The notes under the pieces are model-generated. The model did not search any database. It worked only from the letters and a program-made list of their open reading frames with translations, and was not told the DNA's origin. A DNA stretch of 64,000 nt from an uncultured Cohaesibacter sp. (GTDB taxonomy: Bacteria; Pseudomonadota; Alphaproteobacteria; Rhizobiales; Cohaesibacteraceae). Location: assembly GCF_963666525.1 (NCBI RefSeq), contig NZ_OY762905.1, forward strand, positions 1,780,001 through 1,844,000. Reading direction: 5' to 3'. This document shows, piece after piece, positions 4,705 to 20,815 of the stretch. A program made the translations under genes and the position numbers. The first letter of the stretch is position 1. The number at the start of each line of letters is the position of its first letter.

Positions 4705-6051
4705 ATGTCCGTTCAAAAACCATGCGTTGGTGTTGTCGCTCTCGGCAGACCGACTTTTGATGTTCCCTATGCGGAAGAAATTCTCGCCAAGGCCTGGCAA
4801 GCCCTTGAAAAGCTTGACATGGAGCTTATCGGCAAGCCGGAATTGCTGTTTGATGCCGATGCCGTACTCTCGGCCCTGCCGGACCTCAAGAAGCAAAAGC
4901 TCGACATGCTGCTGCTGTTGCAGGTCACCTTTACCGATGCAACCATGACCGTGGAACTGGGCAAACAGATCGACGCGCCGCTCGTCATGTGGTCTTTCCC
5001 CGAAGCCCGCACAGGCGGACGCTTGCGCCTCAACTCCTTCTGCGGTGTCAACCTCGCCAGCCACGCGCTGAGCCGCAACGATCTGGCCATCGACTATATC
5101 CACGATAACCCCGACAGTCTGGCAGCGCAGGAGCAACTGATGGTGCTGGCCCGTGCCGGTGCCGTGGTTTCCGATCTCAAGGGAGCCAGAATCAAGCTTG
5201 TCGGCCATCATCCCGACGGCTTTGACGCCTGCAACTTCAAGGCAGACCAGCTCAAGGCGGCCTTCGGTGTCGAAGTGGACCAGACGCCGATTCTCGACTT
5301 CATCGGCGAAGTCAAGCAATTGCCTGATTCGGTTGCCGATGCTCCCTACGAACGCCGCGCCAAGGACTTCCCCAATCTCGCAGACCTCGATCAGGACGCC
5401 ACCCGCAAGACCCTCAAGGTCTATTCCAAGCTGCGTCTGGAAGCCGACACCAAGGGCTACAAGGGCGTCGCCGTCCGGTGCTGGCCGGACTTCTTCACCG
5501 AATATGGCTGCGCGGCCTGCGGGGCGCTTGCCCTGCTCAACGAAGACCGCACCCCCGGCGGTTGCGAGGCCGACATGCTCGGCGTCCTTACCTCTCTGGT
5601 TCTGCAGAATGCTTCCGGCGGCAGCGTCTTCAATACCGACCTCGTCGATGTCAATACCAGCGACGATACCGTCGTCTTCTGGCATTGCGGTCAGGCCCCC
5701 ATCGACATGGCCGACCGTGAACAGCCGATCCAGGGCACCATCCATTCCAACCGCAAACTGCCACTGTTGTCGGAATTTGCCCTGAAGCCGGGACGGATCA
5801 CCATCGCCCGCTTCTCGCAGGGCCATGAAAAGCTGCGCCTTGTTCTGGCTGGCGCCGAGATGATCAAGGCACCTCTGGCCTTTTCCGGCACAGCCGGCAC
5901 CGCCAGACCGGACATCCCGGTTGCAGAGTTCCTTGACCGCATGATTTCCGAAGGCCTCGAACACCACACCGCCCTGACCTATGGCGACCATCGCCCGGTC
6001 ATGCGCGCGATCGCCAAACGACTTGGCATCGAAGTGGTTGAGCTGACCTGA
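4705..6051 (+). CDS. L-fucose/L-arabinose isomerase-like protein, probable sulfoquinovose isomerase (SqvD-like)
   Basis: Cytoplasmic protein of 448 aa with the two-part architecture of the FucI/AraA-like sugar isomerase superfamily: an N-terminal Rossmann-like half (GVVALGRPTFDVPYAEE) and a C-terminal half with conserved acidic and His positions (CWPDFFTEYGCAACG, VFWHCGQAP, HHTALTYGDHR). It heads an operon with a TRAP transporter and a sulfoquinovosidase, and no AGE-family YihS isomerase is present in the window. The step SQ to sulfofructose is therefore the natural assignment, as reported for the FucI-like SqvD enzymes of the alternative sulfo-EMP pathway. The assignment is from context and fold; another sugar isomerase is possible. 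The ATG is preceded by GGAGGTAAAAG. A hairpin and 74 bp separate it from dctQ. Confidence 0.75.
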   Translation: MSVQKPCVGVVALGRPTFDVPYAEEILAKAWQALEKLDMELIGKPELLFDADAVLSALPDLKKQKLDMLLLLQVTFTDATMTVELGKQIDAPLVMWSFPEARTGGRLRLNSFCGVNLASHALSRNDLAIDYIHDNPDSLAAQEQLMVLARAGAVVSDLKGARIKLVGHHPDGFDACNFKADQLKAAFGVEVDQTPILDFIGEVKQLPDSVADAPYERRAKDFPNLADLDQDATRKTLKVYSKLRLEADTKGYKGVAVRCWPDFFTEYGCAACGALALLNEDRTPGGCEADMLGVLTSLVLQNASGGSVFNTDLVDVNTSDDTVVFWHCGQAPIDMADREQPIQGTIHSNRKLPLLSEFALKPGRITIARFSQGHEKLRLVLAGAEMIKAPLAFSGTAGTARPDIPVAEFLDRMISEGLEHHTALTYGDHRPVMRAIAKRLGIEVVELT

Positions 6052-6066
6052 CACTGCCAACCCGCC

Positions 6067-6084
6067 TGGCGGACCGATCCGCCA
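6067..6084 (+). other. Intergenic hairpin between isomerase gene and dctQ
   Basis: Seven-bp stem TGGCGGA/TCCGCCA with a CCGA loop and no U-tract. It is one of three stem-loops placed between segments of the same operon, and may tune mRNA stability rather than end transcription. Confidence 0.45.
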
Positions 6085-6125
6085 GCGCCCATCGTCCGGG
6101 TTTCTTCAAAACAGGAATTGCAACC

Positions 6126-6650
6126 ATGTTGGCAACACTCGAAAAAGGCCTCAACACCATCAATTCGCCTCTGAGCAGGTTCGGCAGCTGGGTCGGCGGC
6201 CTGATGCTGGTCATCATGACCATCATCGTCCTGCTGCAGGTCCTTTTCCGCTACATCCTGAACATGCCCCTGAGCTGGACCGACGAAGCTTCGCGCTTCC
6301 TGATGATCTACATGACCTATCTCTGCCTGCCGCTGATCTATCTGCAGGACAAGAATATCGCCATGACCTTCCTGCTCGACGCCCTGCACGGCACACGCAT
6401 CCGCCATCTGCTGATGGTCGTCATTCATATTCTTGCCATCCTGACCTTTCTGGTCTGGATCAAGTTCGGCTATGACTTTTTCCTGCGCGGCAACAGCCAT
6501 GCGGACAGCCTGCCGATCAAGATGAATGTCATCTACATCGCTCCGCCGCTTCTGATGGCCATTACCCTGTTGTCGGCCGTGCAGAAGATCATCTCCGAGC
6601 TGCGCCAGTTTTTCCATTACACCCCTGCTGAAGACGCGCCCAAAGCCTGA
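6126..6650 (+). CDS. dctQ: TRAP transporter small permease (DctQ)
   Basis: 174 aa with four membrane helices (about residues 20-40, 52-70, 92-112, 134-154), the normal size and topology of the DctQ subunit. The family signature LQVLFRYILNMPLSWTDEASR is clear. In TRAP systems this subunit pairs with the large DctM permease and docks the periplasmic DctP protein; transport is driven by a sodium gradient. It lies 30 bp upstream of dctM in the SQ operon, so the cargo is probably sulfoquinovose or a sulfoquinovosyl glycoside. That substrate is inferred from the neighbours. Confidence 0.93.
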   Translation: MLATLEKGLNTINSPLSRFGSWVGGLMLVIMTIIVLLQVLFRYILNMPLSWTDEASRFLMIYMTYLCLPLIYLQDKNIAMTFLLDALHGTRIRHLLMVVIHILAILTFLVWIKFGYDFFLRGNSHADSLPIKMNVIYIAPPLLMAITLLSAVQKIISELRQFFHYTPAEDAPKA

Positions 6651-6680
6651 ACGGCAAGGACGTAAACAAGGAAAATAGTT

Positions 6681-7970
6681 ATGGTTTCTCCTATCTTTGC
6701 CGTTTATTTCCTGATCCTTCTGATCGTCGGTGTGCCGGTGCTGTTCGCACTTGGCCTGTCTCCGGCAATTGCGCTTCTGCAGGCGGACAAGGTTCTGTTC
6801 ATGAACCTGCTCTACCAACGCCTCTATGCGGGGATGGACAACTTTCTGCTGCTGGCATTGCCCTTCTTCATGCTGGCCGGCGAATTCATGGTCAATGGCG
6901 GCATCACCACACGCATCATCAGCTTCTCCCAGAAGATGGTCCAGCACATGCGTGGTGGTCTCGGCCATGTGGTGATCATTTCTGCCACCCTGTTCGGCGC
7001 CCTCACTGGCTCATCGGTTGCGGCAACCTCTGCCATCGGCAACATGATGATCCCGGAGATGGAACGCTACAAATATGACCGCACCTATGCGGCAGCCATC
7101 ACCGCAGCGGCGACCGTTCTGGGCACCATCATTCCGCCCAGCGGCATCATGCTGATCTATGCCTTCGTGATGAATACCTCGGTTGCCGCCATGTTCATGT
7201 CCGGTATCGTGCCTGGGCTCATCCTGTGCGTCGCCCTGATGATCATCAACCGCTGGCAGATCAAGAAATACCCGGCCGTCGAGCAGTTCGAACGCGCCCC
7301 GCGGGCCGAACGCAGCGCAGCTTTCAAGGCTGCCATCCTGCCGCTCCTGACCCCTGTCATCATTCTGGGCGGCATTTATGGCGGCATCTTTACGCCGACC
7401 GAGGCTGCCGCCGTCGCGGTGTTCTATGCCTTCATCCTGTCAGTGTTCATCATGCGCATCCTCAAGCTCAAGGATGTGTTCCCGATGTTCATGCGCATCG
7501 CCATCAATGCAGGTGCCATCCTGATCATCGTGGCGGCCGCCAGTGGCTTTGCTTCGGCCATCTCGCTTTCGGGTGTCGCCAAGCACATCACCACTTTCTT
7601 CTATTCGGTCTCCGATGACCCCTATGTGCTGTTCTTCATCATGAACCTGTTCCTGTTCGTCGTGGGAATGTTCCTTGATGCAGGCCCGGCGATCCTGATC
7701 TTTGCGCCCATTCTGGCCCCGATCATGACCAACGTCGGCGTCGACCCGATCCATTTCGGTGTCGTCATGGTGGTCAACCTATCCATCGGGCTCGCTACCC
7801 CGCCCATGGGCCTCGTACTCTTCGTGGCGTCCGGCGTATCCGGCGTCCCCCTGCAGAAAATCTCAAAGGCGATTATCCCGTTCCTGTTGGCTGAAGCCGT
7901 TGTGATCTTTCTGATTTCATTCTTCCCGCCACTCGTTATCGGCTTGCCGAAACTGCTTGGCATGATGTGA
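6681..7970 (+). CDS. dctM: TRAP transporter large permease (DctM)
   Basis: 429 aa, the usual length for DctM, with about 12-13 hydrophobic segments of the ion-transporter superfamily. Visible family motifs are LPFFMLAGEFMVNGGIT near residues 58-75, the GALTGSSVAATSAIG segment, and IPPSGIMLIYAF near 152-163. It forms the sodium-coupled channel with DctQ. RBS-like AAGGAAAATAGTT precedes the ATG. A 76-bp spacer with a hairpin separates it from dctP. Substrate inferred as SQ or SQ-glycerol. Confidence 0.94.
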   Translation: MVSPIFAVYFLILLIVGVPVLFALGLSPAIALLQADKVLFMNLLYQRLYAGMDNFLLLALPFFMLAGEFMVNGGITTRIISFSQKMVQHMRGGLGHVVIISATLFGALTGSSVAATSAIGNMMIPEMERYKYDRTYAAAITAAATVLGTIIPPSGIMLIYAFVMNTSVAAMFMSGIVPGLILCVALMIINRWQIKKYPAVEQFERAPRAERSAAFKAAILPLLTPVIILGGIYGGIFTPTEAAAVAVFYAFILSVFIMRILKLKDVFPMFMRIAINAGAILIIVAAASGFASAISLSGVAKHITTFFYSVSDDPYVLFFIMNLFLFVVGMFLDAGPAILIFAPILAPIMTNVGVDPIHFGVVMVVNLSIGLATPPMGLVLFVASGVSGVPLQKISKAIIPFLLAEAVVIFLISFFPPLVIGLPKLLGMM

Positions 7971-7991
7971 GCGGGTTTTTTTGGAGGAGGT

Positions 7992-8018
7992 CGGCAATGA
8001 CCAGAGGAAGCATTGCCG
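7992..8018 (+). other. Intergenic hairpin between dctM and dctP
   Basis: Eight-bp stem CGGCAATG/CATTGCCG with an 11-nt loop, just upstream of the strong GGAGGTAACTC ribosome-binding site of dctP. There is no U-tract directly after the stem. It may mark an RNA-processing point that lets the binding protein be made in excess. Confidence 0.45.
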
Positions 8019-8046
8019 GCAAAAAACTTACTAGTGGAGGTAACTC

Positions 8047-9099
8047 ATGACTATCAAGGCACTCGGACTGTCCCTGTTGACCGCAGGTTTCCTTTCCGCC
8101 GCTGCGCAAGCTGCCGACTACAAGCTGACGGTCCCACATGTGACCAACCCGGACAGCTACAACCATCAGTCACTGCTGGTGTTCAAGAATTTCGTCGAAA
8201 ACCATTCCAACGGTGCCATCGAGGTCGAGATCTTCCCGAGCGGACAGCTCTGCGGCAATGCCCGTGAGTGCCTCTCTGGCGTACAGTCCGGCATCTTTGA
8301 CTATTTCCAGACCACCATCCCGGAACTGGCCAACTACTGGGGTCCGGTCGGTGCATTCGATCTGCCCTACATGCTGCGCGATGACCGTGTGGCCGAATGC
8401 GTCTATGACAACGAGGATTTCCTCGCCGACATACGCAAGAATGTGCTCGAACAGACCGGCAACCTGCGCCTGATGATGGTGTCCAACTCCGGCGGCTGGC
8501 GCAACTTTGCCACCACCAGCAAACAGATCAAGACGCCCGAAGACATCAAGGGGCTGAAGATCCGTACCGTGCCGGCACCGATCCAGCAGGAACTGGTCAA
8601 GTCGCTGGGCGGCGCTCCGACCCCGATTTCCTGGCCGGAAGTCTACACGGCGCTGTCCACCGGCGTTGTTGACGGCACCAAGAACGGCATCGTCGATATC
8701 ACCACCATGAAATTCGAGGAGAGCCTCAAATACATCATCCTCGACGGTCACGCCTACATGGGTGGCGTCTGGGTGATGAACAACGAACGCTTCAATTCCT
8801 TCCCTGAAGAGCTGAAGCGCGTGGTTATCGACGGCATCGCGGCCCAGAACCAGTTCCTGCGCGTCTATCCGAAATGGAAGGAATTTGACGCCTATGAGAC
8901 CTTCCGCAAGGCTGGCGGCACCATCTACACGCCGACCCCGGCAGAGAAGAAAGCCTTCCAGGACGCCACAGCTCCAGTGAAAGACTTCTTCATCCAGACT
9001 GCTGGCGCCGATGGCAAGGCTTGGCTTGAACGCTTCCAAACCGAGATCAAGGCCTGCGAAACCAGGCTCGACGCCGAATTCGCAACCGCCGAGAAATAA
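8047..9099 (+). CDS. dctP: TRAP transporter solute-binding protein (DctP)
   Basis: 350 aa periplasmic protein with a Sec signal peptide (hydrophobic core about residues 6-20, cleavage likely after AQAA near 23). It is a DctP-family solute receptor: the conserved arginine that usually contacts the anionic group of the ligand is R173 in GLKIRTVPAPI, and W151-R152 and the DGTKNG loop around 209-214 occupy other ligand-site positions. It differs from dicarboxylate binders at several of these, which fits an anionic but unusual substrate. From its neighbours the ligand is probably sulfoquinovose or sulfoquinovosyl glycerol. The start is fixed by GGAGGTAACTC upstream of the ATG. Confidence 0.92.
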   Translation: MTIKALGLSLLTAGFLSAAAQAADYKLTVPHVTNPDSYNHQSLLVFKNFVENHSNGAIEVEIFPSGQLCGNARECLSGVQSGIFDYFQTTIPELANYWGPVGAFDLPYMLRDDRVAECVYDNEDFLADIRKNVLEQTGNLRLMMVSNSGGWRNFATTSKQIKTPEDIKGLKIRTVPAPIQQELVKSLGGAPTPISWPEVYTALSTGVVDGTKNGIVDITTMKFEESLKYIILDGHAYMGGVWVMNNERFNSFPEELKRVVIDGIAAQNQFLRVYPKWKEFDAYETFRKAGGTIYTPTPAEKKAFQDATAPVKDFFIQTAGADGKAWLERFQTEIKACETRLDAEFATAEK

Positions 9100-9110
9100 A
9101 GACAAAAGCG

Positions 9111-9131
9111 AAGGGGTGCCTCGCACCCCTT
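9111..9131 (+). other. Stem-loop between dctP and the sulfoquinovosidase gene
   Basis: Nine-bp perfect stem AAGGGGTGC/GCACCCCTT with a 3-nt loop, 11 bases past the dctP stop. No T-run follows, so it is more likely an mRNA 3'-end stabiliser or partial terminator than a strong stop. Confidence 0.5.
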
Positions 9132-9216
9132 CCCATCCCCGCCATCTTGCCTGCCTGCTCTTTTGAATTCTGATCGCGCTTTCCGAATTCACAAGATCAG
9201 ATCGAGGGAAAATCTC

Positions 9217-11238
9217 ATGAAATTCGAAAGATCCGAAGCCGGTTTCGTGCTCTCGCACAAAGGCCATGTCGTGCTGCGCCACAGCCACAGCGAACCATGC
9301 CTGTTTGTCGGTATGGGCAACGGCGTGTTCGACATGTATCGCGGCAACTTCGACATCAGGGACTATGTCGTCGAACGCATCGCCCTGCGCTGCTTTGCGC
9401 TCAAGAGCGAAGAGCAGGCAGTCCGCATCGAGTTCCGCCACGAGGGCGAACTGCAGATTGCCCTTCTGGCGGGCGAAACCCCGGAAGGACGCCTCCGCAT
9501 TGATTTCCTTGATGCCCGCGAAGGGCTCAACCGCATCTGGCTGCGTCTTGATGCAGACAAGGACGAAAAGATCTACGGCTGCGGCGAACAGCTCACCTAT
9601 TTGAATCTCAGGGGTCACAATTTCCCCCTCTGGACATCAGAGCCGGGGGTTGGCCGCAACAAGTCGACCTATGTAACCTGGCAGGCGGATGTCAAAGACC
9701 GTGCTGGCGGCGACTACTACAACACCAACTATCCGCAGCCGAGCTTTGTCTCGTCGGAACGCTATTTCGTGCATTTGCAGACCACGGCCTATGCAGACTT
9801 CGACTTCCGCAACGCCGCTTTCCACGAGCTGCAATGCTGGGCCGTCCCGGACTATCTGCTGTTTGACAGCGAAGAGAGTTTCCCGGCGCTTGTTCACAAC
9901 ATCACCGGTGTCTTCGGCACGCAGCCGGAATTGCCGGACTGGGTTCTGGACGGTGTCATACTCGGCATTCAGGGCGGCACAGCCATCACCCTCGAGAAGC
10001 TGCAGAAGGCCCGCGCAGCGGGTGTCAAGGTCGCAGGTGCCTGGTGCCAGGACTGGCAGGGCATCAAGATGACTTCCTTCGGCAAGCGGCTGCAGTGGGA
10101 CTGGCAGTGGAACCCCGACCTCTATCCCGGCCTCGACACCAAGATCCATGAATTGAAGCACGATGGCATCCGCTTCCTTGGCTACATCAACCCCTATGTG
10201 CTGGAAGACTTCCCGCTCTACAAGGAAGCCGCAGCCAAAGGCTATCTGGCCACCCGCGCCGACGGTTCCAAATATGTCGTCGACTTCGGCGAATTCTATT
10301 GCGGCGTTGTCGATTTCACCAAACCGGAAGCCTGCGAATGGTACAAGGGAGTCATCAAGACCAACATGATCGACTTCGGCCTTGATGGCTGGATGGCCGA
10401 CTTTGGCGAATATCTGCCGACCGATTGCTCTCTTGCCAATGGCAAGTCTGCCGAGATCGAGCACAACGACTGGCCACGTCGCTGGGCCAAGATAAACCAC
10501 GAAGCCATCGAGGAAGCAGGCAAGACCGACGAGATCCTGTTTTTCATGCGCGCCGGCTACACCGGAATCCAGCGCTATTGCCACACGTTGTGGGCGGGTG
10601 ACCAGTGCGTCAACTGGAACATCGACGATGGCATGCCGTCAGTGATCAACGGCGCCCTGTCCTCTGGCCTGCTGGGCAACGGCATCCACCATTCCGACAT
10701 CGGCGGCTACACCACCCTGCACGGCATGAAGCGCGATAGGGAGCTGTTCATGCGTTGGGCGGAAATGGCCGCCTTCACCCCGATGATGCGCACCCACGAA
10801 GGCAACCGGCCCGCCGACAACCACCAGTTCGACAGCGATGCCGAAACCCTGCTGCATCTCGCCCGCATGACCCGGATCTTCACCCACCTGAAACCCTATA
10901 TCAAGTCTGCGGTCAAGGAAAACACCCTCACCGGTATGCCGGTTCAGCGGCCGCTGTTCATGCATTACGAGGACGACGCGCTTTCCTACGAGGTCATGTA
11001 TGAATATCTGTTTGGCCGCGACCTGCTGGTGGCTCCGGTCTATGAGCAGGGCGCAACCAGCCGCAAGCTCTATCTGCCGCCGGACCAGTGGATCCATATC
11101 TGGAGCGGTGAGCACCATCAGGGCGGCTGGGTCGAAATTGAAGCCCCCATCGGCAAGCCGGCGGTATTCTATCGCGCGGCCAGTGCCGACACCGTTCTGC
11201 TGGGCAAACTGCCTGACATCGCCGACGACATTGATTGA
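9217..11238 (+). CDS. yihQ: Sulfoquinovosidase, GH31 (YihQ type)
   Basis: 673 aa cytoplasmic retaining alpha-glycosidase that releases sulfoquinovose from its glycosides, such as SQ-glycerol from plant and algal sulfolipid. It matches E. coli YihQ along its whole length as I remember that sequence, and the functional residues line up with a constant offset of 10: nucleophile D395 (WMADFGEY), acid/base D462 (WAGDQ), and the sulfonate-recognition set Q278, R291, W294 (WCQDW then GKRLQW) and Y498 (DIGGYTT). This set separates sulfoquinovosidases from ordinary GH31 alpha-glucosidases. No signal peptide, so the glycoside must be imported first. The ATG at 9217 is preceded by GAGGGA; an in-frame TTG at 9163 is less likely. 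Last gene of the plus-strand SQ operon. Confidence 0.95.
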   Translation: MKFERSEAGFVLSHKGHVVLRHSHSEPCLFVGMGNGVFDMYRGNFDIRDYVVERIALRCFALKSEEQAVRIEFRHEGELQIALLAGETPEGRLRIDFLDAREGLNRIWLRLDADKDEKIYGCGEQLTYLNLRGHNFPLWTSEPGVGRNKSTYVTWQADVKDRAGGDYYNTNYPQPSFVSSERYFVHLQTTAYADFDFRNAAFHELQCWAVPDYLLFDSEESFPALVHNITGVFGTQPELPDWVLDGVILGIQGGTAITLEKLQKARAAGVKVAGAWCQDWQGIKMTSFGKRLQWDWQWNPDLYPGLDTKIHELKHDGIRFLGYINPYVLEDFPLYKEAAAKGYLATRADGSKYVVDFGEFYCGVVDFTKPEACEWYKGVIKTNMIDFGLDGWMADFGEYLPTDCSLANGKSAEIEHNDWPRRWAKINHEAIEEAGKTDEILFFMRAGYTGIQRYCHTLWAGDQCVNWNIDDGMPSVINGALSSGLLGNGIHHSDIGGYTTLHGMKRDRELFMRWAEMAAFTPMMRTHEGNRPADNHQFDSDAETLLHLARMTRIFTHLKPYIKSAVKENTLTGMPVQRPLFMHYEDDALSYEVMYEYLFGRDLLVAPVYEQGATSRKLYLPPDQWIHIWSGEHHQGGWVEIEAPIGKPAVFYRAASADTVLLGKLPDIADDID

Positions 11239-11353: not shown

Positions 11354-12202
11354 CTATAACTGCAGCGCCGCCTGGCGCAGGATCACTTCGCTCAACGCCT
11401 GCGACACGGCTTCATCGACCCCCTTGCGCTTGACAAGGATGAACTCGACCATTTCGAGCTCCGGCAAAAGTCCCTTCGGCACCTCCTCAAGACCTTCCGG
11501 ACGGAGGCTTCGGGGTTGCACGAACAGGCCCAGACCGGCCCGGGCAGCCGCCGTCAAACCACTCAGGGAACTGCATGTGCAGCTGATCCGCCAGGGAGTA
11601 CTGCTGCCATCAAGCGCCTCCAGAGCCAACGAGCGCGTCAGACTGGGCGGTGGAAAGGCCACCAGGGGGAGCGGCCGCTTGCGAGCGAGTTCCAAAGGAT
11701 TGCGAGCCAGCCAAACCAGCTCCTGCCGTGCGATACAGCGTCCGTGAGTCTGCCCCAGCCTGCGCTTGGCCAACACCAGATCGACGTCGCCGAGTTTCTG
11801 CTGGGCGAACAGGGTCTCAGAGAGGGCAACCGTCAGTTCCAGATCCACCAGCGGATGCTCTCGCGAGAAGTTCTCCAGAATACGCGGCAAGGTGCCCGAG
11901 ACCAGATCTTCCGACAGCCCGAAACGGATGCGCCCGCGCAACCGGGCAGACAGGAAATTGCCTTCCACCCGTTCGGCGATTTCGATCATCCGACGGGCTT
12001 CGGGCAACAACTGCTCGCCTGCGGGCGTCAGCGCAACGGTGTGCGTGTCCCGGTCAAACAGGCGATTCTGCAGATAGGTTTCCAATCGCCTGACATGTTG
12101 GCTGACCGTTGACTGGCCGATGCCGAGATGTGCCGCCGCCCGGCTGAAGCTGCCACTTTCGAAGACCGCGAGAAAACTTCTGACTTGAGCGAGATCGAGC
12201 AT
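11354..12202 (-). CDS. LysR-family transcriptional regulator
   Basis: 282 aa. N-terminal winged helix-turn-helix (residues about 3-60; FLAVFESGSFSRAAAHLGIGQSTVSQHVRRLE) and a C-terminal periplasmic-binding-like effector domain from about 90. Length and layout are standard for LysR regulators. It is divergent from the BASS-type transporter gene at 12294, with a perfect palindrome between them, so it most likely controls that transporter. The inducer is unknown. Whether it also acts on the flanking SQ genes cannot be told from sequence. Confidence 0.92.
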   Translation of the reverse strand: MLDLAQVRSFLAVFESGSFSRAAAHLGIGQSTVSQHVRRLETYLQNRLFDRDTHTVALTPAGEQLLPEARRMIEIAERVEGNFLSARLRGRIRFGLSEDLVSGTLPRILENFSREHPLVDLELTVALSETLFAQQKLGDVDLVLAKRRLGQTHGRCIARQELVWLARNPLELARKRPLPLVAFPPPSLTRSLALEALDGSSTPWRISCTCSSLSGLTAAARAGLGLFVQPRSLRPEGLEEVPKGLLPELEMVEFILVKRKGVDEAVSQALSEVILRQAALQL

Positions 12203-12219
12203 GCTTATCCAGCTTTGTG

Positions 12220-12230
12220 ATAACTGTTAT
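12220..12230. promoter_or_regulatory. Palindromic LysR-type operator candidate
   Basis: Perfect palindrome ATAACTGTTAT in the 91-bp gap between lysR and the transporter. It has the T-N11-A style dyad expected for LysR proteins and lies 18 bp upstream of the regulator start. Confidence 0.5.
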
Positions 12231-12293
12231 AGATTGTATTTCGATTTGTACTGATGCACAAGGGAGGCAACCGTAATCAGAGTATCCTCTCCC

Positions 12294-13307
12294 ATGTCCC
12301 GAATTCGTCTTGAGCCCTTTACCATAGCGCTGGTCTGCACCGTTCTGCTCGCCTCGCTCCTGCCCGCGCACGGCGCCTTTGCCCATTGGTTCGGCATCGC
12401 CACCAATCTGGCGATTGCACTGTTGTTCTTCATGCATGGTGCCCGCCTGTCCTGGTCGACGGTTCTGGCAGGCATCCTGCACTGGCGCCTGCAGCTGGTC
12501 ATCTTTGTCAGCACCTTTGCGCTGTTTCCATTGATCGGTATCGTCGTCGGCCATATTTTGACCCCGCTGCTTCCCCACGACCTCATTCTTGGCATCATCT
12601 ATGTGTGCCTGCTGCCGTCCACGGTGCAGTCTTCCATCGCCTTCACCTCGATCGCCCGAGGCAACGTGCCCGGTGCGATCTGCGCTGCGTCGCTATCCAA
12701 CATCATTGGTGTGATCCTCACACCTCTGCTGGTCGGCGTATTGCTCTCGGTGTCGGGCAAGGCCGGCTTCGACTTTTCTGCCGTGTGGAAGATCCTGTTG
12801 CAGCTGTTCCTGCCCTTCGTGCTCGGCCAGCTATGCCAGCCCTGGATTGGCAACTGGATACGAGCACGCAAGAAGATGCTCAATCCGGTTGATCGGGGAT
12901 CGATCCTGATGGTGGTCTATTCCGCCTTCAGCGCCGCCGTCATCAACGGTATCTGGCATGACTTCTCACTCGCCGACATCCTGCTGGTTGCCCTCGTCAA
13001 CGGCGTCATTCTGGCTTTTGTGCTCTTCATGACCATGCAGGGAAGTCGCCTTCTGGGATTCTCGCGCGAGGACGAGATAACGATCATCTTTTGCGGCTCC
13101 AAGAAAAGTCTGGCCAGTGGCGTTCCCATGGCCAGCGCGATCTTTTCGCCAGCGGCGGTCGGGGCCATTGTTCTTCCGATCATGCTGTTTCACCAGATGC
13201 AGCTCCTCGCCTGTTCTGTCATCGCCCAGCACTACGCCCGCCGGGATGAGGAAAAGGCCGCAAGTACCGCGTTGGAAGACGGCATGCAGAAGCTGGAACA
13301 CAGCTGA
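12294..13307 (+). CDS. Bile acid:sodium symporter-family (YfeH-like) transporter
   Basis: 337 aa inner-membrane protein with about 9-10 helices. It belongs to the BASS/SBF-like superfamily of the YfeH subtype, recognised by LLPSTVQSSIAFTSIARGN near residue 103-121 and GSKKSLASGVPMA near 263-275. BASS proteins move organic anions with sodium; the substrate here is not known. It is divergently paired with a LysR gene. Its position inside the SQ locus allows a role in sulfonate or organic-acid traffic, but nothing in the sequence proves it. Confidence 0.85.
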   Translation: MSRIRLEPFTIALVCTVLLASLLPAHGAFAHWFGIATNLAIALLFFMHGARLSWSTVLAGILHWRLQLVIFVSTFALFPLIGIVVGHILTPLLPHDLILGIIYVCLLPSTVQSSIAFTSIARGNVPGAICAASLSNIIGVILTPLLVGVLLSVSGKAGFDFSAVWKILLQLFLPFVLGQLCQPWIGNWIRARKKMLNPVDRGSILMVVYSAFSAAVINGIWHDFSLADILLVALVNGVILAFVLFMTMQGSRLLGFSREDEITIIFCGSKKSLASGVPMASAIFSPAAVGAIVLPIMLFHQMQLLACSVIAQHYARRDEEKAASTALEDGMQKLEHS

Positions 13308-13662
13308 ACAGCTCCCCAAAAGCAAAATTTCCCAGCGCCATTCCCTCGATCTGACAGCGGCAATCCTGCGTCAGATCGGGTTTGCCGGCCGGTTGGTCGG
13401 TGAAAAGCCACATAAGGGGATCGACCTGCGAAAAGTGCGAGCCGTTCCGCCGAGCGTCGGCAAGCGGTCGCTACCATCAAGTGTGTGCGGCCCAAGATGA
13501 GCGTTGCCCAATCCACCACTTTGTGACATCGTGCCCCCTCGTACGCATGATCTTGCTTTCCTGGCCCAAGCATTCCCCATCTCAGCAAGTCACTTTCCTG
13601 CTTCCTACCTTCACAATCCGGCCGGCCTCAAACGGTTCGGTCCAGGTGACGACGATTTGCCA
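13308..13662. other. 355-bp intergenic region with one inverted repeat
   Basis: Non-coding stretch between the BASS transporter and the MFS gene. It contains a 9-bp perfect inverted repeat CGATCTGAC/GTCAGATCG (13347-13355 and 13370-13378) about 40 bp past the transporter stop, possibly a weak terminator since no T-run follows. A TTG at 13504 is in frame with the MFS gene, but the encoded extension is not membrane-like or conserved-looking. Nothing else recognised. Confidence 0.4.
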
Positions 13663-14964
13663 ATGCCTCAAAAGCCAGAACAAGACCAGGCTTCCGCCCG
13701 AAAGCCCGCGCTCCTCACGTTTTTCCAAACACCGGAAGGCAGCCTGAACAGCCGCAGGATCGTCCTTTTCCTTGCCTTCTTCGCGCTGGCGCTGAACATG
13801 CGCGGACCGATCACCTCCCTGCCACCAGTCATCGCACAGATGCAACGAGACCTCGGCATCAGCCAGAGCGTCGCGGGTCTTCTGAGCAGCATACCGGTGC
13901 TGTGCTTCGGCCTTGCAACGCCACTTGTCTCTCTGGTTCAGGCTCGCGTCACCATCGAACAGACGATCGCCATCACCCTGTGGGGCGTTCTGCTCGGCAC
14001 CTTGCTGCGTTCCTTCGGCGACATTGCGCTGGTCATGGCCGGCACCGTCATTCTGGGTGTTTCCATGACTTTCGGAAACATCGTTGCTTTGATGGTTGTC
14101 GCAAGAGATTTCAATCAGATCCGCACCTTGATGACAGGTATCCTCGTTTCGGCGATGAGTGTCGGCTCGATGTTGACCTCGGCCTTTACGGCGCCGCTTG
14201 CCAGCCTGTTCGGATGGCACTTCGGGCTCGGCATCTGGGCCGTTATGGCTCTGCTTGGCATCGTGCTCTGGACCATCAGCGGCCGCATGTCCCCGCAACA
14301 GGAGACAAAGGCTCCGGAAGCATCCGGCGTATCGGCACCATCGGAAGCCCGCGGCCAGCCAGCAGAGGCAACTGGCCAGCGCTCCCTGTTTCGTCGACCT
14401 TCGGCATGGCTGATGGCTGCCGCCTTTGGCACCCACACCTTCATGTTCTATGGCCTGACAGCATGGTTGCCGGTCTATCTGACCAGTACCATCGGTGCGA
14501 GCGCCAACACAGCAGGCTTTGCCGAATCGATGTTCCAGATCATGGGGCTTACGGGCTGCTTCGGCATTCCCTGGATGGCCAGCCGCTTCAAGGGCTCTCA
14601 CATGGCGCTGTTCCTTGCCGTGACCATTGCCTGGTTCATCATGGCTGTGGGCACCTATCTGGCACCATCCCTGTGGCCCGTCTGGGCAGTCTTCGGCGGC
14701 TTTGGCAGCGGCGGTGGCTATGTGGTGATTTTCGATCTGGTGATGTCGCGCGCAGCAACGCTGGATGAAGGACGAAAAATGTCGACCTTTGTGCAGGGGC
14801 TCGGCTATGTCGTCGCCTCCATCAGCCCGACGGTGGTTGGCAGCCTGCACCAATGGACCGCCTCATGGACGCTCTCCTTCGTGCTGTTTGCCCTCAGCGC
14901 CATCATCATGGCGATCTGTGGCATCATCACCTCACTGCGCCCGCCGGTCGGCAGCCACAGCTAG
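13663..14964 (+). CDS. MFS transporter, CynX/NimT-like
   Basis: 433 aa with about 12 membrane segments and a cytoplasmic linker near residues 200-240 rich in Ala, Glu and Pro. The LNMRGPITSLPPVIAQMQRD segment after the first helix is characteristic of the CynX/NimT (cyanate/nitroimidazole) branch of the major facilitator superfamily. Substrate unknown. The ATG at 13663 puts about 25 residues before helix 1. The preceding RBS is weak, and no close promoter is assigned. It converges on the aldolase gene with a terminator between them. Given its position it could export a small anion from sulfosugar breakdown, but this is speculation. Confidence 0.82.
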   Translation: MPQKPEQDQASARKPALLTFFQTPEGSLNSRRIVLFLAFFALALNMRGPITSLPPVIAQMQRDLGISQSVAGLLSSIPVLCFGLATPLVSLVQARVTIEQTIAITLWGVLLGTLLRSFGDIALVMAGTVILGVSMTFGNIVALMVVARDFNQIRTLMTGILVSAMSVGSMLTSAFTAPLASLFGWHFGLGIWAVMALLGIVLWTISGRMSPQQETKAPEASGVSAPSEARGQPAEATGQRSLFRRPSAWLMAAAFGTHTFMFYGLTAWLPVYLTSTIGASANTAGFAESMFQIMGLTGCFGIPWMASRFKGSHMALFLAVTIAWFIMAVGTYLAPSLWPVWAVFGGFGSGGGYVVIFDLVMSRAATLDEGRKMSTFVQGLGYVVASISPTVVGSLHQWTASWTLSFVLFALSAIIMAICGIITSLRPPVGSHS

Positions 14965-14980
14965 CATGCACAACAAAAAA

Positions 14981-15006
14981 TGCCCTGACCGGGGAAGGTC
15001 AGGGCA
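14981..15006 (-). terminator. Rho-independent terminator of the class II aldolase gene
   Basis: Perfect 10-bp stem TGCCCTGACC/GGTCAGGGCA with a 6-nt loop. On the minus strand it is followed directly by TTTTTTG, so it ends the minus-strand aldolase transcript; it may also slow readthrough from the convergent MFS gene. Confidence 0.85.
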
Positions 15007-15055
15007 GGTTCGATCCTACTCGTCAGGGAGGAAACTTGCTTGAGAGGAACGGATA

Positions 15056-15919: not shown

Positions 15920-16029
15920 TCTGTTACCTCTTCTTGCGCGCCCTTTGAGAAGCGCACCGCGACAGCCGACAAAGTCCTCTGCACTGCCAATGTCATAAAT
16001 CGTGTTTCTATAAGCCCACGATACCCCAA

Positions 16030-16061
16030 TTTGAGCGTTTTCGAAAGTGTTTGAGCGTTTT
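16030..16061. promoter_or_regulatory. Paired TTTGAGCGTTTT operators upstream of the aldolase gene
   Basis: Two identical 12-mers TTTGAGCGTTTT at 16030-16041 and 16050-16061, exactly 20 bp (two helical turns) apart, in the 186-bp gap between tauE and the aldolase gene. The same motif family occurs in the two other control regions of the locus. Candidate sites for the YihW-like regulator; they imply that the aldolase gene has its own promoter. Confidence 0.65.
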
Positions 16062-16105
16062 AATGGGCGAAAAACAACATTACTGCACAAATTTCTACAG
16101 AAACC

Positions 16106-16849
16106 CTACAGTAGATGGAAATTTTTCACCACCAGCATAGCCCCGATGATCAAAAGCAGCGTATGGATGATACCGTGATAGTTGATCTTGTATTTGTGCA
16201 GCAGGTGATAGGCGAACATGCCAAGGCTCATGCCGACAATGAAGGCCGGAAAGGCGTAAAGCACCCGCTCGAACACATAGGCATCCAGCAGCCCCTTGCT
16301 CCAGAAGCCAGCAATCGCACCCACCATCTGCAGCATGAAGAAGAACACCAGGGTCGATTTGACCTCGTCGGCGCTCCATGGCTGCATGGAGGTATAGGCG
16401 ATGACCGGCGGTCCGGGCTCTCCCACGCTCGCCCCAAGCGCTCCGGAAAAGAAGCCGGTGCCCAGGGTGATCGGCGGCGAGGTCTTCTTGAACAGCGGCG
16501 AGCGCGAGAAAAGGGAATAGAGGCTGGAGCAAATGAGCACGATGCCCATCGTGATCAGGATCGCCTCACCCGGCAACCGCTTGAGCAGGTCCGCTCCGAG
16601 AAAGGACCCCGGCAACGACCCCGCAAACAGGATCAGGCCGCTTTTCCACTGCACATGGTGACGCATTTTCCAGACCAGCGGAAAGGTAACCAGCCAGCCG
16701 AAGATGCCGGCGATGGGAACCGCCGCCTTGACATCGACCGCCATCGAAAGAAGGGGCACGCTGACCAGCGCCAGACCGAACCCGGTCAACCCTTGGGTAA
16801 AACTGCCAAGCGCGATGATCGCCGAGACAATGATGATTTCCATGAACAT
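16106..16849 (-). CDS. Sulfite/organosulfonate exporter, TauE/SafE family
   Basis: 247 aa inner-membrane protein with about 8 helices, the normal size for TauE/SafE. The repeat motifs GLTGFGLALVSVPLLS (about residues 19-34) and GALGASVGEPGPPVIAY (about 134-150) are typical. The family exports sulfite and C2/C3 sulfonates. As it lies between the mutarotase and aldolase genes of the SQ cluster, it is the best candidate for export of dihydroxypropanesulfonate, the product left after reduction of sulfolactaldehyde. Starts at 16849 or, two codons in, at 16843; AGGT lies 7 nt before the first. Confidence 0.88.
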   Translation of the reverse strand: MFMEIIIVSAIIALGSFTQGLTGFGLALVSVPLLSMAVDVKAAVPIAGIFGWLVTFPLVWKMRHHVQWKSGLILFAGSLPGSFLGADLLKRLPGEAILITMGIVLICSSLYSLFSRSPLFKKTSPPITLGTGFFSGALGASVGEPGPPVIAYTSMQPWSADEVKSTLVFFFMLQMVGAIAGFWSKGLLDAYVFERVLYAFPAFIVGMSLGMFAYHLLHKYKINYHGIIHTLLLIIGAMLVVKNFHLL

Positions 16850-16883
16850 GAGAGATACCTGCCAAAAGACGCGCCAAAAGACA

Positions 16884-16915
16884 GCCAGAGCCCCTCATGA
16901 GAGGGTCGCTCTGGC
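16884..16915 (-). other. Hairpin between mutarotase and tauE genes
   Basis: Stem GCCAGAGC/GCTCTGGC with an inner CCCTC/GAGGG pairing around ATGA. No U-tract follows on the minus strand. It sits inside the operon, so it may set relative mRNA levels of the two genes. Confidence 0.45.
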
Positions 16916-16934
16916 CTCTTGGGGGACAACCGGG

Positions 16935-17990
16935 CTAGCGCGTACCGAACCGATGGATGGTGCGGTGGTGATAGACCTCACCGGGATTGAGCACCGCGCT
17001 GGGGAAGTGTGGCCGGTTCGGTGCATCCGGGAAGCCCTGCGTTTCAAGACAAAGCCCGCCAAAGGCTTCATACTTGCAGCCGTTGCGACCGTACCATTCC
17101 CGGTTGGAAAGCTTGAAGGCATTGTAGAACTGGATGGCGGGCTGGGTGGTCAGCACCTTCATGTAACGGCCCGATTTCGGGTCATATAGGTCGGCTGCGA
17201 GCTTGTAATCGCCATCCTTCTGCTTGCCGTTGAGGATGAAGTTGTTGTCGATCCCGCCACCATCGATGGCCTTCATGTTGTCGCCAATCACCGTCGGACT
17301 GCGGAAGTCGAGCCCGGTTCCGGCCACAGACAGGACCTCGCCGGTCGGAATCATGGTTTCGGAAACCGGCGTGTAGAAATCGGAGAACAGCGTCAGTTCG
17401 TGACCGGCCACACTGCCGCTGTCATGTCCGGCCAGATTGTAATAGCTGTGGTTGACCAGATTGACGATGGTCGGCAGATCACTGGTGGCGGTGAAGTCAT
17501 AGCAAAGGGTATTGGCTTCGCTGAGGCCGATCGTATGGGTAACCTGCATCGTGCCCGGATAGCCCGATTCGCCATCAGGCGAGACCCGGTGGAAATGCAC
17601 AAGAATAGCGCCCTTGCTTTCCTCGATATCATAGCCCCAGACATATTTGTCAAAACCGCGCGCACCGCCGTGCAGATGCTGGCCGGTCGGGGCTTCGTTG
17701 GTTTCCAGCTGATAACGGTGGGAACCAACGGCAAACCGCCCGTCCTTGATGCGGTTGGCAAAACGGCCGGCAATGGCACCAAAGAACGGATGGCCGGCCA
17801 GATAGCGCTCAAGCGATTCATACCCAAGTACGACGTCGGCCAGATTGCCCTCCCGATCCGGCACTTCAAGGCTGGTGACGATACAGCCATAGTTGGTGAC
17901 CCGAACGGTCATCCCTTGCGCGTTTTTGAGCGTGATGAGATCAACCCGTTTGCCGTCAACCTCACCATAGGCTTCAATGATCTTTTCCAT
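16935..17990 (-). CDS. Aldose 1-epimerase (GalM family), probable sulfoquinovose mutarotase
   Basis: 351 aa cytoplasmic mutarotase. GalM-type features are GRFANRIKDGRF near residues 76-87, HLHGGARGFDKYVW near 103-116 with the catalytic-type His, NHSYYNLAG near 180, and a late Glu in GGLCLETQGFPDAPN. The family interconverts alpha and beta anomers of free sugars. It lies 20 bp downstream of the yihU-type gene in the same operon, which points to SQ anomers after hydrolysis. It is the GalM subtype, not close to E. coli YihR as I recall it, so the role is the same but the protein differs. Confidence 0.9.
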   Translation of the reverse strand: MEKIIEAYGEVDGKRVDLITLKNAQGMTVRVTNYGCIVTSLEVPDREGNLADVVLGYESLERYLAGHPFFGAIAGRFANRIKDGRFAVGSHRYQLETNEAPTGQHLHGGARGFDKYVWGYDIEESKGAILVHFHRVSPDGESGYPGTMQVTHTIGLSEANTLCYDFTATSDLPTIVNLVNHSYYNLAGHDSGSVAGHELTLFSDFYTPVSETMIPTGEVLSVAGTGLDFRSPTVIGDNMKAIDGGGIDNNFILNGKQKDGDYKLAADLYDPKSGRYMKVLTTQPAIQFYNAFKLSNREWYGRNGCKYEAFGGLCLETQGFPDAPNRPHFPSAVLNPGEVYHHRTIHRFGTR

Positions 17991-18010
17991 TTTCTTCCTC
18001 CCGTGCCCGA

Positions 18011-18904
18011 CTATTTGGCCTTGGTTTCAAGGCCAGACAGGACACGTACCTGTTCCAGAACTGCCGTCCAGTCCTGACGACCGCGTCCTGCGACACGGCT
18101 GATGTTGTAAAGTTCGCGCGATGCAGCTCCCATCGGCATGGGAACGCCGACCTGATTGGCCAGATCGAGCGCAATGCCCAGATCCTTGTGCGCCAGATCG
18201 ATCATGAATGCGGGTGACAGATCTCCGGCCAGCACCTTGTTGGGCCAGGTGGTCGTGAAATGCCCCTTGCCGGCGGGCGTGCCGCTCATCACCGACATTG
18301 CCGTATCGAACTCGAGTCCGATCTTCTCCGACAGGGCAATCGCCTCGGCGGACAAGGCATTGAGTGCAATGCTCATGTAGTTGTTGATGATCTTGACGCG
18401 GATCCCCTTGCCGGGCCCGCCGGCATCGACGGTTTCCGAGCCCATCAGATCGAACAGCGGCTGCGCCCGCGCGATCTGCGCCTTGGTGCCACCAGCCAGA
18501 ATCAGCAGCGTACCGGCCACCGCATGGTCAGACGTGCGCCCGACCGGCGCTTCCATCATCTCGATGCCCTTGGCCCCGAGGTCCCGGATCAGGGCATCGG
18601 TTTCCAGCGGATGGATGGTCGACATGTCGATCACCAGCGTATCCTTGGACAGAGCAGAGACAACCCCACCCTCTCCAAGCAACACGTCGCGCACCAGCGC
18701 ACCGTTGGGCAGCATCGTTATGACAAACGCGACCTCTGTTCCGGCCTCGGCCGCAGACGAACAGGCGATGGCCCCTTGCGCTGCCAGCTTGCCTACCGCA
18801 TCCTTGTTGATGTCAAAAACCTTGAGCTGATTGCCCCCTTTGATCAGATTGGCAGCCATTGCGGCGCCCATCTGCCCCAGACCGATAAAACCGACAGTCG
18901 TCAT
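18011..18904 (-). CDS. yihU: Sulfolactaldehyde reductase (YihU type)
   Basis: 297 aa, beta-hydroxyacid dehydrogenase family. N-terminal Rossmann motif [13 protein letters not shown], substrate-binding segment VGRTS with R123-T124-S125, catalytic K171 in KIINNY, and an all-helical C-terminal half. It tracks E. coli YihU closely as I remember it, including [23 protein letters not shown] and [20 protein letters not shown], far beyond general family similarity. YihU reduces sulfolactaldehyde with NADH to 2,3-dihydroxypropane-1-sulfonate, so this strain probably excretes DHPS and not sulfolactate. First gene of the minus-strand operon, divergent from the kinase gene. Confidence 0.93.
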
Positions 18905-19076
18905 TTTGGACCCTTTTGCTTGAGCGAATTTGATCGTAAATCAACATTTGCAGCAAAAAGAGACAAAATTCAACACAATTAAGTTGTTTTTTGATCGTTT
19001 CTGGTGATATTTTGGGGTCAAATCGGCAAAATCAGATGTAAGACGCTCAAATCGAGCACCAATCAAGGGAAGCAAA
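18905..19076. promoter_or_regulatory. Divergent control region between yihU- and yihV-type genes
   Basis: 172-bp AT-rich region carrying four copies of the regulon motif: TTGAGCGAATT (18920-18930) abutting TTTGATCGTAAAT (18929-18941), TTTGATCGTTTC (18990-19001), and an inverted ATTTGAGCGTCT (19041-19052). CAACATTTGCAG follows the second copy, matching the arrangement near 4480-4512. Probable binding region of the DeoR-type regulator controlling both directions. Confidence 0.65.
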
Positions 19077-19970
19077 ATGACTGTTGCATGTGTCGGCATC
19101 ACCGTTCTGGACCGTGTCTTCCGCGTTGAAACGTTGCCCAGCCACGGCGGGAAATTTGTGGCCAAGGACTATTTCGAAATCGGAGGTGGACCGGCAGCCA
19201 CGGCGGCTGTGGCCGTGAGCAGGCTCGGTCTTCCGGTGGAATTCATCGGTCGGGTGGGAAGCGACGATGTTGCCGGAGCCATCATGCGTGAATTCGACCA
19301 CTATGGCGTCGGGCATGAGTTCACCCGCATCATAGACAAGGCCACCTCCTCCTTTTCGGCCATTCTGGTGGACGACGCCGGCGAACGGATGATCATCAAC
19401 TATCAGGATTCAACCCTGAGCCGCTCGGCAGACTGGCTGGAGGCGGTGGACTTCTCACTATTTGAGACAGTGCTCTGTGATGTCCGCTGGCATGAGGGTG
19501 CAGCCTACGCGCTCAGAGAGGCCAAGACACTCGGAACCCCGAGCGTTCTGGATGCCGACATTACCCCACAGGACATCAGCGACCTCGTCGCCCTGGCAGA
19601 CCACGTGGCGTTTTCCGAACCCGGTCTGGCGAAATTCTCACACACAGATGACCTTTTGAGTGGATTACGCATTGCCCAGACCAGAACCGATGGTAAAGTC
19701 TACGTGACAGCCGGCGCCGAGGGCTGCTATTGGCTGGAGGAGGGCCAGCTGCAACACGCACCCGGCTTCAAGGTCGAGGTGCTGGACACCACCGGTGCCG
19801 GGGATGTGTTTCACGGAGCCTTTGCCTACGCACTGGCCAAGGGCATGGACACCGGGGCAACCGTCCGGTTCGCCAGCGCTGTCGCCGCGCTGAAATGCAC
19901 AAAGATGGGAGGACGAGAAGGCATTCCGGATCTGGACACCGTAACAGCCTTTCTCGCCAACAACAGTTGA
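19077..19970 (+). CDS. yihV: Sulfofructose kinase, PfkB family (YihV type)
   Basis: 297 aa ribokinase-fold sugar kinase. PfkB signatures are GGGPAATAAVAVSRLG near residue 36 and the catalytic DTTGAGDVFHGAF near 236. It resembles E. coli YihV throughout as I remember it, and the three residues I recall as binding the sulfonate of sulfofructose are kept: K26 (GGKFV), N108 (IINYQ) and R137 (DVRWHEG). It should phosphorylate 6-deoxy-6-sulfofructose at C1 using ATP. It starts the plus-strand pair with the regulator gene 68 bp downstream. GGGAAGCAAA precedes the ATG. Confidence 0.93.
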   Translation: MTVACVGITVLDRVFRVETLPSHGGKFVAKDYFEIGGGPAATAAVAVSRLGLPVEFIGRVGSDDVAGAIMREFDHYGVGHEFTRIIDKATSSFSAILVDDAGERMIINYQDSTLSRSADWLEAVDFSLFETVLCDVRWHEGAAYALREAKTLGTPSVLDADITPQDISDLVALADHVAFSEPGLAKFSHTDDLLSGLRIAQTRTDGKVYVTAGAEGCYWLEEGQLQHAPGFKVEVLDTTGAGDVFHGAFAYALAKGMDTGATVRFASAVAALKCTKMGGREGIPDLDTVTAFLANNS

Positions 19971-20038
19971 AGAAAATCACGCGACCCGGCCTTTCCCGCA
20001 AGCCACGGATCGCCAGTTGGAAACGAGAAAGAAGCCTC

Positions 20039-20815
20039 ATGCCGGAAGCAGTCATCGTCGGAAACCCTCGCCAGGACAGGCTTCTCAAGGAAGTGAACGA
20101 GCGGGGCTACATCAGTGTCGAGGAGCTAACCGAACTGCTTGATGTCTCGGCACAGACCATCCGCCGCGACATCAAGAAGCTGAGCGACCAGAAACTGCTC
20201 ATCCGACACCATGGCGGCGCGGCGCGCAGCTCGAGCGTGATCAACCTCGACTATGCGGTCCGCCAGAATTCCGAGACCGAGGAAAAGGAAGCGATCGGCG
20301 AAGCCATTGCCGCCCAGATCCCCGACAACAGCTCTATCTTCATTTCCATCGGCACGACAACCGAAACCATCGCCAAGCATCTGCTGCAGAAGCGCGGATT
20401 GCAGATCATCACCAACAGCCTGCGGGTTGCCAGCGTGCTGTATCAGAACCCCGATTTCAACGTGATGGTCCCCTGCGGCAAGCTGCGCAGCACCAACGGC
20501 GGCATTCTCGGCTCGACTGCGCTCGACTTCATCAACCACTTCCGGGTTGATTTCCTGATCACCAGTTGCGGCTCCATCGACAGCGACGGCACTCTGCTGG
20601 ACTATGAGTTCAACGAAGTGATCATGGTGCAGAGCATGATGAAGACGGCCCGCAAGACCTTCATCGCAGCGGATTCAACCAAATTCACCACCACGGCCAC
20701 AGTCGAGATGGGCCACATCAAGAATATCACGGCGCTGTTCACCGACGCCCAGCCACCAGCCGACATCCGCATGCAGCTCGAGCTCAACGGCGTCAAGCTT
20801 TTCGTGGTACACTGA
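20039..20815 (+). CDS. yihW: DeoR-family regulator of sulfoquinovose catabolism (YihW/CsqR type)
   Basis: 258 aa. N-terminal DeoR helix-turn-helix (residues about 8-62; YISVEELTELLDVSAQTIRRDIKKL) and a C-terminal sugar-phosphate-sensing domain with IGTTTETIAKHL and ITNSLRVA. The GNPRQDRLL opening and RHHGGAARSSSVIN segment match E. coli YihW as I remember it. YihW represses the SQ genes and is released by SQ or SQ-glycerol. Here it probably binds the TTTGAKCGTWWW-like repeats in three control regions. The frame is open upstream, overlapping the kinase gene, but the conserved start is the ATG at 20039; the RBS is weak. Confidence 0.92.
   Translation: MPEAVIVGNPRQDRLLKEVNERGYISVEELTELLDVSAQTIRRDIKKLSDQKLLIRHHGGAARSSSVINLDYAVRQNSETEEKEAIGEAIAAQIPDNSSIFISIGTTTETIAKHLLQKRGLQIITNSLRVASVLYQNPDFNVMVPCGKLRSTNGGILGSTALDFINHFRVDFLITSCGSIDSDGTLLDYEFNEVIMVQSMMKTARKTFIAADSTKFTTTATVEMGHIKNITALFTDAQPPADIRMQLELNGVKLFVVH

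Follow-up and report, generated by a model that had tools for sequence, protein, structure and literature searches.

What pathway is encoded by the gene cluster at positions 4705-20815 of this Cohaesibacter stretch, and has that pathway been seen before? The stretch analysed here (the window, 64 kb) corresponds to C1:1780001-1844000 in a genome that consists of one contig of 5.18 Mb. Sulfoquinovose (SQ) is a sulfur-containing sugar that abounds in the membranes of plants and algae, and the cluster can be read, with a probability of roughly 0.88, as an SQ catabolic cassette of the hybrid sulfo-Embden-Meyerhof-Parnas (sulfo-EMP) type, which would convert SQ to 2,3-dihydroxypropane-1-sulfonate (DHPS). 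This reading follows from the identity of four encoded proteins to E. coli Yih proteins, the residues that they keep, their PDB matches, the fold of the isomerase, and the conserved linkage of the genes. The initial annotation had proposed such a hybrid locus in an alphaproteobacterium, with E. coli-type kinase and reductase and sulfo-EMP2-type isomerase and aldolase; the proposal stands, and the genes that it named are long open frames where it placed them.

When seven E. coli proteins (YihQ, YihR, YihS, YihT, YihU, YihV, and CsqR, also called YihW) were compared with the window by tblastn (E <= 1e-3), only YihQ, YihU, YihV, and CsqR gave matches. The four relatives are 52.6-66.3% identical to the E. 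coli proteins near full length (Table 1), and 53-66% identity for four proteins inside 16 kb is far beyond chance. The putative sulfoquinovosidase YihQ scores 992.5 bits with NF007746 (cut-off 553), an NCBIfam equivalog model that carries the name alpha-glucosidase; in PDB it matches 8r56, a glycoside hydrolase family 31 (GH31) entry, with 985.7 bits and E. coli YihQ (5aed) with 858.7 bits. YihU passes the cut-off of 348 for NF012005, sulfolactaldehyde 3-reductase, with 480.1 bits, and its best PDB match is the 3-sulfolactaldehyde reductase 6sm7 (425.5 bits; next 177). YihV, which scores 174.6 bits with PF00294, best matches the sulfofructose kinase 7ag6 (370.5 bits; next 193.6). Every residue that the initial annotation had singled out aligns with E. 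coli: Q278, R291, W294, D395, D462, and Y498 of YihQ; R123 and K171 of YihU, where N174 and S178 are kept as well; and K26, N108, and R137 of YihV.

The E. coli isomerase YihS and aldolase YihT, claimed from the outset to be lacking, have no match in the window and none in the genome at E <= 0.001 in a search without a built-in control; the YihT query picks up relatives of 25-29% identity in other alphaproteobacterial loci (tblastn). The isomerase of the cluster is an SqvD-type protein, which scores 30.1 bits with PF02952, narrowly over the cut-off of 29.3, and 285.3 bits over nearly full length with NCBIfam NF048012 (SftI, an SQ isomerase equivalog). It is 99% identical to its counterpart in Cohaesibacter haloalkalitolerans JC131, on which ground the host is taken to be a Cohaesibacter (Hyphomicrobiales), and 59-65% identical to the isomerases of nine Yersiniaceae clusters. 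Neither phmmer nor an 8-row profile retrieved a PDB sequence at E <= 1, and a profile alignment to E. coli FucI had a probability of 0.4%; a structure model was used in its place. The AlphaFold2 model, built with 37 sequences, has a mean pLDDT of 94.4, and Foldseek pairs it both with L-arabinose isomerases, where the best match has E 1.5e-28 and a query-based TM-score of 0.84, and with L-fucose isomerases (1fui, E 2.5e-17, TM 0.79). The model thus predicts a FucI/AraA fold, as "FucI-like" had implied, for a protein of the SqvD class. E288, D312, H420, and H421 are invariant in 37 of 37 rows, and the E288-D312 spacing of 24 residues, compared at the sequence level, equals that of FucI E337-D361, a pair that we take to bind metal.

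In the place of YihT there is a predicted class II aldolase of the sulfo-EMP2 type. Its nearest PDB entries are 8q57 and 8q58 (416.6 and 406.8 bits; next 231.3), which we take to represent SqiA as solved by Sharma et al. 2023; the same two entries are matched by the cluster aldolase of Yersinia frederiksenii (578.9 and 543.1 bits). A literature search by the codes 8q57, 8q58, and 8r56 returned nothing relevant. The window aldolase is 66-68% identical to the Yersiniaceae cluster aldolases and reaches none of the ordinary aldolase equivalog cut-offs. A GalM-type mutarotase, absent from the initial annotation, is also part of the conserved core.

The reactions, transport roles, regulation, and end product that can be inferred from these proteins would run as follows. 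SQ glycosides, for example SQ-glycerol, would be imported by the tripartite ATP-independent periplasmic (TRAP) system; YihQ would release alpha-SQ, whose mutarotation the GalM-type enzyme would accelerate. SqvD, dependent on a metal ion, would convert SQ to sulfofructose, which YihV would phosphorylate with ATP to sulfofructose 1-phosphate (SF-1-P). The class II aldolase would cleave SF-1-P to dihydroxyacetone phosphate, which would enter glycolysis, and sulfolactaldehyde (SLA), and YihU would reduce SLA with NADH to DHPS, which would leave the cell through TauE. CsqR would keep the divergent units repressed in the absence of SQ. By gene neighbourhood only, uptake is the likely role of the TRAP system and export that of TauE, and the TRAP genes become candidate SQ importers. 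A paper that pairs sulfoquinovose with a TRAP transporter concerns, to go by its title, a taurine-respiring gut bacterium.

The genes lie in two convergent groups, sqvD-dctQMP-yihQ and sqiA-tauE-galM-yihU, with yihV-csqR divergent from yihU (Table 1). No operator was identified in the yihU-yihV promoter region (18905..19076). With a GC content of 58.1%, vs 57.2% in the rest of the window, the locus is not marked as foreign by composition.

Table 1. Features of the SQ locus (window positions) and loci that bear on it
Feature	Position or locus	Strand	Remarks
sqvD-type SQ isomerase (putative), 448 aa	4705..6051	+	FucI/AraA fold (predicted), PF02952
TRAP small permease DctQ	6126..6650	+	PF04290 90.4 bits, over cut-off
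TRAP large permease DctM	6681..7970	+	PF06808 366 bits, over cut-off
TRAP solute-binding protein DctP	8047..9099	+	PF03480 213.4 bits, over cut-off
yihQ-type GH31 sulfoquinovosidase (putative), 673 aa	9217..11238	+	54.6% to E. coli YihQ, NF007746
LysR, variable insert	11354-12202	-	outside pathway core
SBF_like, variable insert	12294-13307	+	outside pathway core
CynX-like major facilitator superfamily (MFS) protein, variable insert	13504-14964	+	outside pathway core
Variable slot, other loci	L030, L031, L034, L035, L038		same place as window 11354-14964
sqiA-type class II aldolase (putative), 287 aa	15056..15919	-	PF01116 310.8 bits, nearest 8q57/8q58
TauE/SafE family permease, candidate DHPS exporter	16106..16849	-	PF01925 94.6 bits, over cut-off
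GalM-type aldose 1-epimerase, candidate SQ mutarotase	16935..17990	-	PF01263 262.8 bits, over cut-off
yihU, SLA reductase (putative)	18011..18904	-	66.3% to E. coli YihU, NF012005
yihU-yihV divergent promoter region, 172 bp	18905..19076	.	intergenic
yihV, sulfofructose kinase (putative), PfkB family	19077..19970	+	58.2% to E. coli YihV
csqR/yihW, DeoR-family regulator	20039..20815	+	52.6% to E. coli CsqR, PF00455 152 bits
Second mosaic, examples	L061, L062, L065, L071-L073, L077, L084, L090, L091, L094		SqvD, YihV-like kinase, YihT-like class I aldolase
Second mosaic, further examples	L101, L106, L110, L112 and others		

Within the genus, SqvD is present in ten of 18 genomes, the window genome counted, and YihU in the same ten; outside the genus, none of 23 relatives has SqvD. 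A search for the gene set in related genomes, which the initial annotation had suggested as a check, found ten core genes (SqvD, DctQ, DctM, DctP, YihQ, aldolase, TauE, GalM, YihU, and YihV) together and in the same arrangement in all nine other loci fetched from the genus, and CsqR in eight of the nine. The interval 4705-20815 had been presented as one locus. This holds for the core genes but not for LysR, SBF_like, and MFS, which constitute a strain-variable insert at the convergent junction of yihQ with the gene for the aldolase. This slot is empty (313-337 bp) in G002, G009, G013, and G014; it holds LysR, SBF, and MFS genes in the window genome and G006 only. G003 has just the LysR and SBF genes there, G011 a gene for a BCCT transporter, and G007 one for a 463-aa membrane protein, as does G012 to judge by the first 60 residues. 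As the slot differs or is empty in the other seven carriers, LysR, SBF_like, and MFS were rejected as pathway genes.

Downstream of the cluster, window 21084-26900 contains in a row genes for a LytTR response regulator, a 5TMR-LYT histidine kinase, and a CstA-family protein, followed by a 466-aa membrane protein without a Pfam match, a homologue of the G007 slot gene; the latter is 71% identical to window 25500-26900. The histidine kinase gene (21982-23700) adjoins the cluster in four of the ten carriers (G000, G003, G006, and G011) and lies away from it in six, once on a different contig. Because this neighbour is kept in only four of ten, the cluster has no fixed chromosomal place. A 9-mer, ACGCTCAAA, is present in six copies in the window (0.53 expected), with copies at 4425, 16030, 16050, 17925, and 19043, one of these five inside galM. 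Its degenerate form RCGYTCAAA is found 7 times vs 2.92 expected, and 4 of 100 shuffles reach 7. Among the nine relatives, the repeat runs through the cluster in G003 and G006 only. As a CsqR site it was rejected, given the unclear excess of RCGYTCAAA and the restriction to these two genomes.

Several observations weigh against the SQ reading. The isomerase score lies under the curated NF048012 cut-off of 700, and the protein is therefore considered a diverged SqvD-type protein. The depositors named 8q57 and 8q58 tagatose- and ketose-bisphosphate aldolase. The GalM-type mutarotase has no match to E. coli YihR in the tblastn search of the window. Both SqvD and YihU are missing from eight of the 18 genus genomes, and in G002 no match to CsqR was found within the fetched stretch.

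The alternative that survives best leaves the enzymes on SQ and changes the outcome: a dehydrogenase encoded elsewhere in the genome would oxidise part of the SLA to sulfolactate, or DHPS would be degraded further. PMC8873060 links TauE to sulfolactate export in Arthrobacter, and the genome search for onward steps covered three families only (Xsc, GD_AH_C, and Histidinol_dh). There are also two Histidinol_dh genes in the genome. The second, at genome 4053147-4054379 and adjoining ABC-transporter genes, was rejected as HpsN since it scores higher against histidinol dehydrogenase (256.0 bits) than against (R)-DHPS dehydrogenase (194.2 bits). No Xsc over the cut-off was found in the genome, and the three GD_AH_C proteins have frames of 515-532 aa, longer than SuyB. 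YihU, moreover, is over its equivalog cut-off and sits in the cluster here and in all nine relatives' loci. A different end product is thus unlikely; excretion of DHPS, the product that the initial annotation expected, would be the simplest expectation from these sequences.

It is less probable still that the cluster mainly serves another sugar, such as an ordinary ketose or a different sulfosugar; the aldolase would then act on tagatose or fructose bisphosphate. The depositors' names for 8q57 and 8q58 and the breadth of the FucI/AraA fold would accommodate this. However, the sulfonate-pocket residues of YihQ and the residues of YihU and YihV are all conserved, and ordinary aldolases, whose equivalog cut-offs are unreached, match the window aldolase 185 bits more weakly.

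Beyond the genus, a sample of 385 genomes drawn evenly from the class, the window genome counted, has SqvD at E <= 1e-20 in eight; YihU and SqiA, both at E <= 1e-80, occur only in the window's own. Pseudovibrio, which is outside this sample, came from a scan of SqvD relatives, in which the best 80 of 542 were taken as loci. SqvD, YihV, YihU, SqiA, and YihQ are found together in at least 12 of these 80 loci: one from Cohaesibacter (L041), two from Pseudovibrio (L044 and L083), and nine from Yersiniaceae (Serratia, Yersinia, and Chimaeribacter). The 12 are a lower bound because truncation at contig ends or flanks hides some loci, L040, L042, and L043 among them. TRAP and TauE homologues accompany only the Cohaesibacter and Pseudovibrio sets (3 of 12); over all 80 loci, a DctM homologue is found in 35 and a TauE homologue in five. 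SqvD and YihV with a YihT-like protein, lacking YihU and SqiA, make up 24 of the 80.

Trees were built from 40 hand-picked loci, with matches under 70% coverage dropped, giving four trees of 33, 23, 39, and 23 rows, the window counted. In the YihV tree, Cohaesibacter groups with Pseudovibrio (99/97); together they branch with E. coli, Yersiniaceae, and a single gammaproteobacterium (100/99), set apart from the other alphaproteobacterial kinases included. In the SqvD tree they again fall together (100/100), with one Consotaella row weakly placed beside them (88/70), and all stand next to Yersiniaceae, Zymomonas, and beta- and gammaproteobacteria (joint fork 99/95). Since outgroup branches are very long (up to 10), the rooting of the YihU and aldolase trees is meaningless. 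The YihV and SqvD trees fit a transfer of the cassette between classes, with no direction indicated. A broader proposal, tentative and with slightly less than even odds, is that an enterobacterial-type, DHPS-producing sulfo-EMP cassette has come by horizontal transfer to be common to the marine Hyphomicrobiales Cohaesibacter and Pseudovibrio, in which TRAP and TauE genes serve as its transport parts, that these bacteria are primary SQ-to-DHPS converters feeding marine DHPS users, and that related cassettes travel on plasmids (pZZM402). Marine alphaproteobacteria with type strains are hereby named as predicted SQ-to-DHPS converters; C. haloalkalitolerans and C. marisflavi are named strains that carry the locus. 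Because DHPS is a major marine sulfonate, a bacterial source in addition to the algal one would matter for how it is cycled.

The scan also revealed cassettes of other composition. A second mosaic, mostly alphaproteobacterial and often with TRAP genes, combines SqvD and a YihV-like kinase with a distant YihT-like class I aldolase (Table 1). Loci L054, L057, L060, L063, and L064 come from metagenome-assembled genomes of sulfate-reducer lineages (Desulfofustis, Desulfobulbaceae, and Desulfosarcinaceae), with SqvD 56-57% and a YihV-like kinase 44-46% identical, TRAP genes, and a class II aldolase just 38-40% identical to that of the window. Zymomonas mobilis uses the Entner-Doudoroff route without phosphofructokinase, so a PfkB kinase on plasmid pZZM402 of strain ZM4 (NC_013785.1) is striking. 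It shares 60% of its residues with E. coli YihV, K27, N109, and R138 included, and belongs to a related cassette (L039, 32957-33853; L138, 128-11361) whose class II aldolase, SqvD, and GalM are 66, 60, and 50% identical to those of the window. A Gfo/Idh/MocA protein, MFS, a TonB receptor, and an SSADH-family gene are present too, and no YihU was seen. The Gfo/Idh/MocA protein is nearest to 8qc2 and 8qc3 (345 and 343.9 bits), which are GH188 sulfoquinovosidases according to PMC10755693. This SqvD is found on four plasmid records, and no paper joining sulfoquinovose and Zymomonas appeared related, as judged by listing.

How does the locus compare with known systems? With the E. coli sulfo-EMP (yih) system it shares YihQ, YihU, YihV, and CsqR; in place of YihS, YihT, and YihR it has SqvD, a class II aldolase, and a GalM-type protein, with TRAP and TauE as candidate transporters, and membership in the canonical pathway was rejected because YihS and YihT have no match. 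The sulfo-EMP2 of Bacillus urumqiensis (PMC9594981) shares the SqvD and class II aldolase families, but its kinase is the PfkA-type SqiK (PF00365), whereas the window has a PfkB kinase and, in addition, a GalM-type mutarotase; strict sulfo-EMP2 was rejected on the kinase. What is found is the hybrid form: a YihV-type kinase with its K/N/R residues, an SqvD isomerase, a class II aldolase (candidate for SF-1-P), and YihU. In the hybrid of Vibrio mediterranei, for which growth and DHPS were demonstrated experimentally (PMC13372026), a class II SqiA likewise sits among E. coli-type enzymes, but the aldolase alone is described as replaced, whereas the window has a different isomerase as well. Further clusters from Alphaproteobacteria share SqvD, a YihV-family kinase, and often TRAP genes but, unlike the window, have a class I aldolase and lack YihU and SqiA.

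The closest system is that of the nine Yersiniaceae loci (L045-L048, L055, L056, L058, L070, and L076), which have the same SqvD, YihV, YihU, class II aldolase, GalM, YihQ, and CsqR, with csqR-yihV divergent from yihU; identities are 55-71%, and 51-56% for GalM. The Yersiniaceae genes form one enzyme run and those of the window two convergent groups, and no DctM or TauE homologue was detected in the nine loci, whereas the window has both. A Yersiniaceae hybrid with SqvD replacing YihS and SqiA replacing YihT is already reported beside sulfo-EMP2 (PMC9594981, citing Liu et al. 2021), and the "new gene combination" of the initial annotation falls. The idea of a novel pathway variant that makes its first appearance in this locus is hardly credible, despite the uniqueness of the window genome within the class sample and the restricted TRAP/TauE pairing, since it is largely refuted by the Yersiniaceae loci and by the hybrids and mosaics in print. 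The "new distribution" fares better: Cohaesibacter and Pseudovibrio are added as carriers, but sulfo-EMP2 genes in csqR neighbourhoods and mixed yih/sulfo-EMP2 contexts are reported from Alphaproteobacteria (PMC10991401), and hybrids from across Proteobacteria and Actinobacteria (PMC12890257, citing Sharma 2023). The alphaproteobacterial SQ routes named in PMC12890257 and PMC13372026 are sulfo-ED (Entner-Doudoroff) and the monooxygenase route. In the literature searched, which leaves most subscription papers and all supplements outside, where Cohaesibacter may be listed, sulfoquinovose is never paired with Cohaesibacter or Pseudovibrio. The locus is thus a well-supported new carrier of a pathway kind already known from Yersinia relatives, to which it adds the host group, Cohaesibacter and Pseudovibrio, and TRAP and TauE as likely transport genes.

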